From Antedon mediterranea (taxonomy: Eukaryota; Echinodermata; Crinoidea; Comatulida; Antedonidae), in the NCBI RefSeq assembly GCF_964355755.1, contig NC_092674.1, forward strand, positions 3,787,001-3,851,000: a stretch of 64,000 nt of DNA, in the 5' to 3' direction. Positions 10,001 through 63,100 of the stretch are shown piece by piece. A program made the translations under genes and the position numbers. Within the stretch, counting starts at the first letter, position 1. Each line of letters opens with the position of its first letter. Under the pieces are notes generated by a model. It was given only the letters and a program-made list of their open reading frames with translations, did no database searches and was not told where the DNA came from.

Positions 10001-13000
10001 AATGGATACAAATAAAATAAGCACTGAAAAAATGACAATGCTGTGGGTATTAGTGACTGGATCTCAATGAAGATAGAAATAAAATAAGCACTGACAAAAT
10101 GACAATGCTGTGGGTATCAGTGGCTGGATCTCAATGGAGATACAAATAAAATAAGCACTGAAAAAATGACAATGCTGTGGGTATCAGTGGCTGGATCTCA
10201 ATGGAGATACAAATAAAATAAGCACTGAAAAAATGACAATGCTGTGGGTATCAGTGGCTGGATCTCAATGAAGATAGAAATAAAATAAGCACTGACAAAA
10301 TGACAATGCTGTGGGTATTAGTGACTGGATCTCAATGAAGATAGAAATAAAATAAGCACTGACAAAATGACAATGCTGTGGGTATCAGTGGCTGGATCTC
10401 AATGGAGATGCAGATAAAATAAGCACTGAAAAAATGACAATGCTGTGGGTATCAGTGGCTGAATCTCAATGGAGATACAAAATAAAATAAGCACTGAAAA
10501 AATGACAATGCTGTGGGTATCAGTAACTGGATCTCAATGGAGATACAAATAAAATAAGCAAAAAGATAAAGCAAAACAGCAAGAAAAATATATGCAGTAT
10601 AGCATCAGTCACACATTGCTATGGTTTCTTGTCCGGCAATCAATCGGATATATTTATCTTAAATGCGGCTTTTTAATACTTGTAATGTGGGAGAGAGTAT
10701 ACCTGAATTTCCTTGGGAAAGGTGGCGCTGAACATAAGCGTCTGTCTACCAGCCTTTGGCATGTTGTCTTGTTCAACAATACGACGAATCTGAGGTTCAA
10801 AACCCATATCCAACATACGATCAGCCTCATCAAGTACAAGCCACCTAAAACAAATAAGGTTCAAAATCTTACTTCAATGTACTTGGAAGTTTAGCTTAAC
10901 TAAAGTGTACTTAATTGATGTTTATTTAAATGTACCTAATTCACTTGGAAATTTAGCTTAACTAAAATGTACTAAATTGATGTTTACTTAACTGTACCTA
11001 ATTCACTTGGAAGCTTACTAAAATTTACTTAAGCAAAGTCTACATTATTGAAATGTTTACTTAAGCTTGAATCTACCCTACTTACTGAACCTAACTGTAC
11101 TTACTTGATGCATTCCATACTAACACGACCTCTTTCCATCATGTCAACGAGACGTCCTGGTGTGGCTACCAGAAGGTGACATCCACGCTCCATGTCTCGC
11201 AATTGACCTCCAACGTCGGCTCCACCGTACACTACACATGGACGTACATGACTTCGGTACGAGAACTAACAAAACAATATTTGAGGTAATTGTAAATTGA
11301 ATGGTTTCTTTACAAATTTATATGACATTAATTAAGCTCTGTCTACACTATCAAACTTTATGTGACAAAAAAATGTTATGTGCTCATATATGGACATGAT
11401 GATGTCATATCACTAATATATTTGGGCATATCACTAATATATTTGGGCATATCACTAATATATTTGGGCATATCACTAATATATTTGGGCACATCACTAT
11501 CACATTTGGGCACACCACACTGTTTTTGTCAAACTAGTTTGATAGTGTAGACTACTTTTTCTTTCTTTCAAATGTCATGTCTTACCTTTCTTGCTTCATC
11601 AAATATCTGACAGGCTAACTCACGAGTTGGTGCTAAGATGACAGCCAAGGGATAGTTCTTGCGTTTGTTACTGCTGTTTTTCTGAATAGAGAAACATATA
11701 TTTAGATTTTAAAATTTCAATTGAATACTAAAATTCTGCTTATTTTGATTGGTGTCATTAAAATATATTGGATTTAAAGCTCTGTCTACACTATCAAACT
11801 TTATGTGACAAAAAAGTGTGATGTGCTCAAATATGGTAGTGATTTGCCTAAATATGGTAGTGATATGACATCATCATTTCCATATATGGGCACATCACAT
11901 TTTGTCACACAAAGTTTGATACCATAGACAGAGCTTCAGATGTTTTGTTTTTTTGTTCTTGCATATGATACAAGTGTACAAAAATTGTGAAAAAAAAACT
12001 TACTGGTGGGAACTGTGCTGGACCTGCCTTGAATATCTGAGTCAGGATTGGAAGCAAGAATGCAGCAGTCTTGCCAGAACCTGTAATAACATTATATACA
12101 GTATTATAAAGTAATCATGCTTAAAGCTTGGTTCCGACTGAAACTCAAAGGCAAGGATGCAACGCAAAGTGATTTGACCAATCTCAAGCGATGGATTATT
12201 CGAAAAGTCGCGTGTGATTGGTCAACTCGCTTGAGTTGCGTCCTATTTAGAAATATCTATGTATATAAAATGACAGAAAGTAAAAATTAAAAAAACATCA
12301 TCATTTCTCAGGACAAAATACACTCCACTCAAATAAACAGCATCTTGTGTTTGTCTCAGAATAGGATCGATATTTCTAAGAAGGATTTGCTTATGGCTAT
12401 ATCAACCAATGCTATTTAACTGTTAGATTGTATATTATTTGGGCCAAAGGCCATATAAAAAATGTTTCTTGGATTTTCCAAGGGAAGAAATATCATTGGC
12501 AATTTGCCAAAATACAAGAAACATACAAAGGGCAGCTTTCAATTGCGCAATAAGATGGAAACAGTCCTATTGAGAATTAACAATATTATTTACAGCTAAA
12601 TAACCCCACTTAAGCTCTGTCTACACTATCAAACTTTACATCACAAAAAAAATGTGATGTGCCCATATATGGACATGTCGTCATATCACTACCATATTTG
12701 GGCATATCACTACCATATTTGGGCATATCACTACCATATTTGGGAATATCACTACCATATTTAAACATCACACTTTTCTTGTAAAACTAGTTTGATAATG
12801 TGGACAGAGCTTAACATGTCTGCCGATTACAGTAGGACCCGTCCTTTAGGACACCTCCATTCAGGGGACACTTTGTTGGGTCCCAAATGTGTCCTCTTAA
12901 TAGGGGTTCCACCGTACTGTATTAATGTATGTAACGTACCTGTTTGAGCACAAGACATAAGATCACGGTTTGCCAAGATGATTGGAATAGCATACTTTTG

Positions 13001-60100: not shown

Positions 60101-63100
60101 TCTCTAAAGCTCTGTCTACACTATCAAACTAGTTTGACAAAAAAAATGTGATGTGCCTAAACATGGTAGTGATATGCTCAATATGGTTGTGATATGTCAT
60201 CATGTCCATATATGGCCACATCACATTTTTTTGTCACATAAAGTGTATATGGATTTATTAACTAACATTACAAGCCAAATTTGCATTACTTTTTTTTTAT
60301 AGAGAAATTTATCCAGAACTGTCAAGCAATTTAAAACAATTTCAGAATCATTTGGTTGAAGAGAGTAATAAAATGACGCCTTTGAAAGTATGGCAATTAC
60401 AAGGTAAATGAATTGTATATATTATATCTTGAAATATCTCCAAAGGCAAATTACTGAAAAAATTACAATGCTGTGGGGATCAGTGGCTGGATCTCAATGG
60501 AGATACAAATAAAATAAGCACTGGAAAATTACAATGCTGTGGGGATCAGTGGCTGGATCTCAATGGAGATACAAATAATATAAGCACTGGAAAATGACAA
60601 TACTGTGGGTATCAGTGGCTGGATCTCAATGGAGATACAAAATAAAATAAGCACTGAAAAATGACAATGCTGTGGGTATCAGTGGCTGGATCTCAATATA
60701 GGTATAAAATAAAATAAGCACTGGAAAATGACAATACTGTGGGTATCAGTGGCTGGATCTCAATGGAGATACAAATAAAATAAGCACTGAAAAAATGACA
60801 ATGCTGTGAGTATCAGAGGCTGGATCTCAATGGAGGTATAAAATAAAATAAGCACTGACAAAATGACAATACTGTGGGTATCAGTGGCTGGATCTCAATG
60901 GAGGTATAAAATAAAATAAGCACTGAAAAAATGACAATGCTGTGAGTATCAGAGGCTGGATCTCAATGGAGGTATAAAATAAAATAAGCACTTAAAAAAT
61001 GACAATGCTGTGAGTATCAGTGGCTGGATCTCAATGGAGGTATAAAATAAAATAAGCACTGAAAAAATGACAATGCTGTGAGTATCAGAGGCTGGATCTC
61101 AATGGAGGTATAAAATAAAATAAGCACTGACAAAATGACAATACTGTGGGTATCAGTGGCTGGATCTCAATGGAGGTATAAAATAAAATAAGCACTGAAA
61201 AAATGACAATGCTGTGAGTATCAGAGGCTGGATCTCAATGGAGGTATAAAATAAAATAAGCACTGAAAAAATGACAATGCTGTGAGTATCAGTGGCTGGA
61301 TCTCAATGGAGATACAAAATAAAATAAGCACTGACAAAATGACAATGCTGTGGGTATCAGTGGCTGGATCTCAATGGAGGTATAAAATAAAATAAGCACT
61401 GAAAAAATGACAATACTGTGGGTATCAGTGGCTGGATCTCGATGGAGGTATAAAATAAAATAAGCACTGAAAAATGACAATGCTGTGGGTATCAGTGGCT
61501 GGATCTCAATGGAGGTATAAAATAAAATAAGCAATAAAAAAATGACAATGCTGTGAGTATCAGTGGCTGGATCTCAATGGAGGTATAAAATAAAATAAGC
61601 ACTGAAAAAATGACAATGCTGTGGGTATCAGTGGCTGGATCTCGATGGAGGTATAAAATAAAATAAGCACTGAAAAATGACAATGCTGTGGGTATCAGTG
61701 GCTGGATCTCAATGGAGGTATAAAATAAAATAAGCAATAAAAAAATGACAATGCTGTGAGTATCAGTGGCTGGATCTCAATGGAGGTATAAAATAAAATA
61801 AGCACTGAAAAAATGACAATGCCGTGGAGTAAAAGTAAAATAAGGGAACAATTAGCTTTCAGGCAACACTAGCCCTTCATCAGTGCAAGTGAGAGTACTT
61901 TGACAAAGTTGAGAAAATATCTTAAAATATCTTATTTTTTACTGTCCTTTTTGTTTTCTTTTTGTTATAGATATTTCGTATCAGGCTGCCCAGCGTGTGA
62001 TGACATCGGACGTGAATGATGCATTAGACGTAATGCGTGACATTAGTCAGAATTTTCCAATGCGAGCTCATTCATTGGTTAAAACTCCTCTGAGAGAGGA
62101 ATTCAAAAAGGAAATTATAACCAATCAGAGGGTAAGCCTATGTATTTTATATTTTGTTATTAAATATGATGTGATGTTATAGTTATACACTATCAAACCT
62201 TATGTGCCAAAAATATGTGATGTGCCCATATATGGACATGATGATGTCATATCACTACCATATTCAGGAATATTGCTACCATATTTGGGCAGATCACACT
62301 TTTTAGTGAGTGTAGACAGAGCTTGATGTGTAGACAGTGGTTGTTTAATTTTGTAAGGTTTTAAAGCCATGATTATTTTCTTGTTAGATTTCGTACAGTA
62401 GTATTGGCTTAGATGCTGGTGAGGATATGCTGATGATAAATGGCCTAGCCATTGATATGGACATTGCTGATCCATTCATGTAAGCTTTCTATACATTCAT
62501 TTTTATATTAAATATATATTATATAATAAGTCCTATACGCATTTATGACCTACAATAAAACAATTGAATTATATGCTTTTATTTTAACCAGAATTGTTAA
62601 GAAATGTAAAAAATATTTTAATTATCCTTGGAAAGAGGTGGGGAGTTCGCGGTGGGGGTGTAGGCCTATCAACATGACCAAAATTGTACTGAAAATTTTT
62701 TAAACTACATTTGAAAACTGCCACTGAGGGGTTATGGCAGTGATGGCTCCACATAATTTGTACTGGAAATTTCTTAAACACATAAGTATGTGGTGTGTTG
62801 GGAGGGCAGGCGTGGAGATACTGGCGTTAATGAGGTACAACTGATTGATTGGGATTGTACTGGGAACAGTTACTACATTTGAACTGTCCTTGTGAGAAGT
62901 TACTTATATTATATATTTGATATTAGTATCTTGTCATTATAAATGTTGCAGGCTCCTTGATTTGTTGAAGACTGAGGCTAGTATCATGAATGGACTACAT
63001 GCTTTAGATATTAAGGTATACATTACTATTTTTTTCTTTTCAAATTGTTACTAAAGTAATCAATACTATAGTAGAGTTTAATAAACTAATACCCTTTTTA

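Follow-up and report, generated by a model that had tools for sequence, protein, structure and literature searches.

A high-copy hairpin MITE has scattered CArG sequences across the genome of Antedon mediterranea

Copies of the element in the window

The DNA analyzed here is a 64-kb stretch (the window) of chromosome C5 in the 354-Mb genome of the crinoid Antedon mediterranea, which is assembled in 11 large contigs. We observe that it holds many copies of a short palindromic miniature inverted-repeat transposable element (MITE) carrying exact CArG words. BLAST with a working consensus identified ~21 elements at 11,335-62,323, some truncated or split by later insertions, which agrees with the copy number given in a first-pass annotation of this DNA. 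The word CCATATATGG occurs 13 times in the window, compared with a mean of 0.06 in dinucleotide shuffles, and all 13 occurrences lie within 12 MITE copies; these are exactly the 12 copies that the annotation had named in claiming at least twelve, and the copy at 31.8 kb contains two. The terminal 20-mer GCTCTGTCTACACTATCAAA is present 33 times with ≤3 mismatches, with 0 expected. We find that the element is very likely a high-copy, non-autonomous hairpin DNA transposon of the PIF/Harbinger type, whose CArG words decay as passengers.

In total, 26 of the 31 CC(A/T)6GG sites of the window fall in 3.3 kb of MITE sequence, and 13 of the 26 are CCATATATGG. A second CArG-type word in the opposite arm, CCATATTTGG, which reads CCAAATATGG on the opposite strand, was overlooked in the first reading. 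Both in the window and genome-wide, the MITE words match exactly the CC(A/T)6GG consensus of an SRF (CArG) site. The ATF/CREB-like word TGATGTCA was also said to occur in many copies, and we find it 14 times against 3.1 expected, with 12 occurrences by position within the family and two outside it (4714 and 52629). The copies are as follows.

11335-11557, plus strand: MITE copy, long or compound, without an exact CArG
11778-11935, minus strand: MITE copy, CCATATATGG at 11880
12613-12811, plus strand: MITE copy with several right-arm units; CCATATATGG at 12663; CCATATTTGG at 12692, 12713 and 12734
15021-15180, plus strand: MITE copy, TAA on both sides, without an exact CArG
21485-21631, plus strand: MITE copy, CCATATATGG at 21534
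21837-21919, plus strand: MITE copy, right part truncated
21983-22293, plus strand: MITE copy split by another inserted element
29436-29585, minus strand: MITE copy, TAA on both sides, CCAAATATGG at 29488
29925-29978, minus strand: MITE fragment
31793-31952, minus strand: MITE copy, two CCATATATGG (31842, 31895)
34285-34446, plus strand: MITE copy, CCATATATGG at 34337, CCATATTTGG at 34369
35208-35337, minus strand: MITE copy, TTA on both sides, CCAAATATGG at 35244 and 35265
48327-48487, minus strand: MITE copy, CCAAATATGG at 48397, CCATATATGG at 48429
51761-51905, minus strand: MITE copy, CCATATATGG at 51861
52080-52240, plus strand: MITE copy, CCATATATGG at 52129
52441-52563, plus strand: MITE copy, CCATATATGG at 52472
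53474-53597, plus strand: MITE copy, CCATATATGG at 53520, CCATATTTGG at 53552
54317-54446, minus strand: MITE copy with another element inserted near its right end; remaining end at 55029-55045
58840-59073, minus strand: long MITE copy with ~five right-arm units
60108-60244, minus strand: MITE copy, CCATATATGG at 60206
62186-62323, plus strand: MITE copy, CCATATATGG at 62226, CCATATTTGG at 62279

Two of the copies are interrupted by other elements. One, of ~580 bp with ends CTGGGGTAGCACT.../...AGTGCGAGCCCAG, is inserted at 54446-55029 with GATAG on both sides; the other, of ~170 bp, starts with CAGGGAACATTTT, ends with AACATTTTTCCCTG and is inserted at 22073-22242 with ATATT on both sides.

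Structure of the element

The MITE is 140-160 bp long and non-coding, and almost the whole element is one imperfect palindrome (consensus AGCTCTGTCTACACTATCAAACTTTATGTGACAAAAAAATGTGATGTGCCCATATATGGACATGATGATGTCATATCACTACCATATTTGGGCACATCACACTTTTTTTGTCAAACTAGTTTGATAGTGTAGACAGAGCT). It starts with AGCTCTG and has the termini AGCTCTGTC...GACAGAGCT and a terminal inverted repeat (TIR) of ~23 bp, AGCTCTGTCTACACTATCAAACT. The pair TGACAAAAAAATGTGATGTGCCCATATATGG / CCATATTTGGGCACATCACACTTTTTTTGTCA forms a second inverted repeat, and the short loop, around TGATGATGTCATATCACTA, contains TGATGTCA. Both CArG words lie innermost in the second inverted repeat, CCATATATGG in the left arm and CCATATTTGG, likewise CC(A/T)6GG, at the matching place in the right arm. 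The right arm holds a 21-bp unit, ATATCACTACCATATTTGGGC, that includes CCATATTTGG and is present in one to five units per copy. Of 141 copies, 95 were best fitted by one unit, 43 by two, and 3 by four or five, as counted with search patterns of restricted length that undercount long versions. Folded as single-stranded DNA, the consensus yields one long hairpin of -54.3 kcal/mol, compared with -12.6 for shuffles (z = -16). The palindromic MITE family that had been described is supported. The element thus has the features that define a MITE, being short, non-coding and hairpin-forming, with TIRs and a high copy number (16,523 TIR words genome-wide).

Target site

The aligned ends read T(A/T)A before AGCTCTG...CAGAGCT and T(A/T)A after it, usually in the context C-TWA-G (W, A or T), and the ends take the form TAAAGCTC or TTAAGCTC. 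Among 106 ends with an intact terminus, position -4 is T in 93, position -3 is A or T in 102, and position -2 is A in 104. The C or G just outside the flank (CTWAG) makes the target palindromic. We observe no 5-8 bp duplication at the aligned ends, and beyond TWA no flank position clearly agrees between the two sides.

T precedes both end forms (xTAA, 32/38; xAAA, 52/58), unlike what a plain TA duplication would give; a Tc1/mariner TA duplication was rejected on the T that stands before TAA in 32 of 38 ends. MITEs of the piggyBac and Kolobok groups are flanked by a TTAA duplication, and a TTAA flank was what the first-pass annotation had proposed. This did not hold, as TTAA stands on both sides in only 3 of the 34 copies that have a GCTC terminus, and position -5 is mostly C rather than T; the conserved flank is TWA, and a piggyBac/Kolobok duplication was rejected on the same counts. 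The likeness to these groups is superficial: TTAA does adjoin the element, but here it consists of one TWA form plus the element's first A, and the outside base is C, not T.

TWA duplications, together with TIRs that usually start with A or G, are published features of PIF/Harbinger families (PMC4482050), and our element has both a TWA target site and a TIR starting with A (AGCTCTG). It resembles the Tourist-like PIF/Harbinger MITEs (PMC4482050) in its TWA flank, its palindromic target preference and its A-starting TIR, and also in being non-coding, short and of very high copy number. It differs from them in that nearly the whole element is one hairpin, the number of 21-bp right-arm units varies, the central W is mismatched in 42% of copies, and no mobilizing transposase was found at the loci searched (39 of 150). 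The MITE probably belongs to the PIF/Harbinger superfamily.

Genome-wide abundance

Genome-wide, CCATATATGG occurs 11,568 times (reversed-word control, 531) and CCATATTTGG 23,460 times (control, 514), giving ~34,000 intact words of the two CArG sequences, ~97% of them above the reversed-word control. Perfect 16-bp TIR words number 16,523 (control, 0), part of them in tandem arrays. Random sampling found 6 MITE copies in 65 kb of arbitrary 5-kb stretches, corresponding to ~33,000 copies genome-wide (95% interval 12,000-71,000), and scaling the genome word counts to those of the window yields ~18,000-31,000. The 21 elements in its 64 kb make the window ~4-6 times richer in the MITE than the genome average. 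At roughly 20,000-30,000 copies, the MITE has scattered tens of thousands of CArG sequences through the genome.

Some occurrences are organized differently. The terminal 16-mer is found in tandem at C1:410772-412383, with a 42-bp spacing and its multiples, and at C1:1405829-1410612, mostly at multiples of 92 bp; the MITE end has apparently turned into satellite DNA on two occasions or more. Five CCATATTTGG words at an exact 38-bp spacing lie at C1:89283-89444, an array perhaps derived from the right arm. We also observed near-identical pairs of copies (C1:2231742 and 2617254; C1:37831654 and 37874179), which were probably carried by segmental duplications rather than arising as separate insertions.

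Decay of the CArG words after insertion

We compared the change rate of the CArG words with that of the neighboring core in two samples. The first comprised 137 distinct copies, with a mean of 5.5% from the consensus, chosen by their TIRs and flanks and not by their interior, plus window and random copies. The second comprised 76 copy heads from the genome-wide perfect-end sets and had no overlap with the first. In the first sample the CArG is changed at 78 of 1270 positions (6.1%) and the neighboring core at 374 of 5283 (7.1%; p = 0.27). The same holds by base (C/G, 9.1% vs 10.3%; A/T, 4.2% vs 4.9%) and for gaps (7.3% vs 8.2%), and the right-arm CArG has a change rate of 7.0%. The second sample gives 49/671 (7.3%) for the CArG and 162/2093 (7.7%) for its neighbors (p = 0.74). 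The word TGATGTCA is likewise not clearly better kept, with a change rate of 6.2% vs 7.2% at other core sites.

Word counts from the whole genome lead to the same result. The excess over the reversed-word control is 11,037 for CCATATATGG and 12,250 and 11,757 for the non-CArG core words GTCATATCAC and TGATGATGTC, giving ratios of 0.90 and 0.94; in the sampled copies, most of which have near-perfect TIRs, the ratios are 62/69 = 0.90 and 62/59 = 1.05. Preferential retention of the CArG in old copies would raise the genome-wide ratio, and since it is not raised there is no evidence of selection, provided that the reversed words give a fair background and that our sample is, overall, younger than the copies of the genome at large. 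Retention above that of neighboring bases, as expected of a functional SRF site, is thus seen neither in the two samples nor in the genome-wide ratio. The first-pass annotation had suggested that the family spread regulatory sites, and one half of this stands: exact CArG sequences have been multiplied genome-wide far above their controls. The regulatory half is not supported: in both samples and in the word counts the CArG mutates as fast as other parts of the MITE, an outcome that the annotation had named among those that would refute this reading. The alternative it had offered, that the motif persists merely through its position in the palindromic core, fits the equal decay.

Harbinger-type transposases and MADS-box genes

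Harbinger-type transposases are abundant in the genome, with 150 matches to DDE_Tnp_4 (PF13359). Our search for an autonomous partner of the MITE, expected to share its TIRs and to encode such a transposase along with a Myb/SANT protein, covered 39 of these loci. A literature text search with the TIR string returned no match. The 104 kb around 30 DDE_Tnp_4 loci contained no MITE copy, where ~5-10 are expected at genome-average density, and MITE copies and Harbinger genes seem to be distributed over separate genomic regions. On the host side, MADS-box matches are found at two places, one on C11 and the other, in two pieces, on C10. This is as expected for an SRF gene and a MEF2 gene, so that a candidate reader of the CArG words exists.

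Discussion

We propose that the MITE inserts at TWA and was presumably mobilized in trans, by a transposase that it does not itself encode. The words CCATATATGG and CCATATTTGG have spread through the multiplication of the element, and once inserted they decay like the rest of it. The CArG motifs look like a by-product of the palindromic core, passengers rather than selected switches, and host regulation by SRF through the MITE is not indicated, although a few exapted copies are possible. Any function of the CArG words would most likely be for the element itself, as subterminal repeats or as a hairpin met by the transposase, and the recurrence of the 21-bp unit is consistent with this.

Several observations weigh against this proposal. 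For copies with perfect 13-bp ends, the flank pairs genome-wide are TAA/TAA 141, TTA/TTA 185, TAA/TTA 171 and TTA/TAA 61, and W is therefore the same on both sides in 326 of 558 near-intact copies (58%; independent sides would give 48%; z = 4.8). These copies are only ~5% diverged, far too little to account for a W mismatch of 42%; such a mismatch is unusual for a 3-bp target-site duplication, and TWA makes a poor one here. We used whole-genome counts for W because the flank-agreement sample was partly conditioned on TWA. Older age was rejected as the cause, since divergence is no higher in mismatched (4.1%) than in matched copies (5.4%). The mismatch might arise if an excised element carried the TWA overhang of its donor site and was joined into a three-base gap. 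Additionally, no autonomous element with the MITE TIRs was found at 30 PF13359 loci (1.5 kb on each side), and nine 8-kb stretches around other PF13359 loci held only two ordinary MITE copies; the partner transposase may be among the remaining DDE_Tnp_4 loci, may have been lost, or may be of another group.

The decay data also contain contrary signals. At the A/T sites of the CArG, 20 of 32 changes in the first sample exchange A/T for A/T, compared with 43 of 154 at neighboring sites (p = 0.0004), and the second sample leans the same way (9/20 vs 21/69; p = 0.28, not significant alone; pooled p = 0.0003). Such a bias would preserve CC(A/T)6GG, and the motif is kept somewhat above the prediction from neighbor rates (63% vs 52%; 60% vs 48%, p = 0.10). 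The 18 window copies also have fewer changes in the CArG (6/162) than in its neighbors (53/722), with small numbers. Slippage in ATATAT or exchange between the arms could produce the A/T-for-A/T bias without selection. This bias is the chief sign of a kept CArG, and because several comparisons were made we treat it as a lead.

Other explanations can be set against these data. A refinement of our proposal, which we hold as a tentative but serious possibility, is that the CArG-like words serve as subterminal binding sites of the transposase or as hairpin elements, under selection for transposition only, with active source copies retaining the words and dead copies losing them neutrally. The symmetrical position of the words in both arms, the repetition of the 21-bp unit in varying number, the strength of the hairpin (z = -16) and the neutral decay after insertion are all consistent with this; however, many copies with intact ends lack the word of one arm or carry an altered one, and the 39 PF13359 loci provided no transposase to which binding could be assigned. 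It is rather doubtful that the MITE comes from another superfamily with a similar AT-rich target, such as ISL2EU, Spy or a Tc1/mariner group. The W agreement of only 58%, poor for a true 3-bp duplication, points in that direction, as does finding no Harbinger gene with the MITE TIRs (AGCTCTGTCTACACT termini) among the 39 loci examined. Yet the almost invariant T at -4 and A at -2, the C or G outside and the A at the start of the TIR agree with what is published for PIF/Harbinger; ISL2EU is reported to have AT duplications and TIRs starting with GG, and Spy to have AAATTT targets (PMC4482050).

We consider it highly improbable that the family has spread working sites for SRF (CArG), and perhaps for ATF/CREB, that selection keeps in at least a sizeable share of copies. 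The exact CC(A/T)6GG words in both arms, the presence of MADS-box genes and the A/T-for-A/T bias at the CArG core in one sample (significant when pooled) would favor such exaptation, and so would a precedent: according to PMC12595863, where Henaff et al. 2014 are cited, Brassica MITEs amplified E2F sites, for which binding was reported. Against it, substitution and gap rates of the CArG equal those of the neighboring core in two samples, intact CArG words are no commoner relative to intact non-CArG core words across the genome than in the sampled copies, and TGATGTCA is not clearly retained above other core sites. Also highly improbable in our estimate is an action of the MITE on SRF itself, in which the ~34,000 CArG-type words would titrate the single likely SRF protein, or wire a subset of nearby genes to it, under weak selection seen as the tolerance of A/T-for-A/T changes.

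As in the Brassica E2F case as described in PMC12595863, a 10-bp transcription factor word has been multiplied genome-wide and MITE copies hold most of its occurrences. Unlike in that account, the word studied here is a predicted site that shows no preferential retention, the genome is that of an animal, and the site is CArG, not E2F. Amplification of binding sites by mobile elements is thus already known in kind from the E2F sites reported there. For A. mediterranea, the finding is a caution for motif-based claims: a single MITE lifts a textbook transcription factor site >20-fold above expectation genome-wide with no sign of selection, and analyses of motif enrichment (SRF/MADS, ATF/CREB) in this genome require that the family be masked first. 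If copies are in fact occupied, they would provide tens of thousands of natural replicates for studying when a transposon-borne site becomes active.

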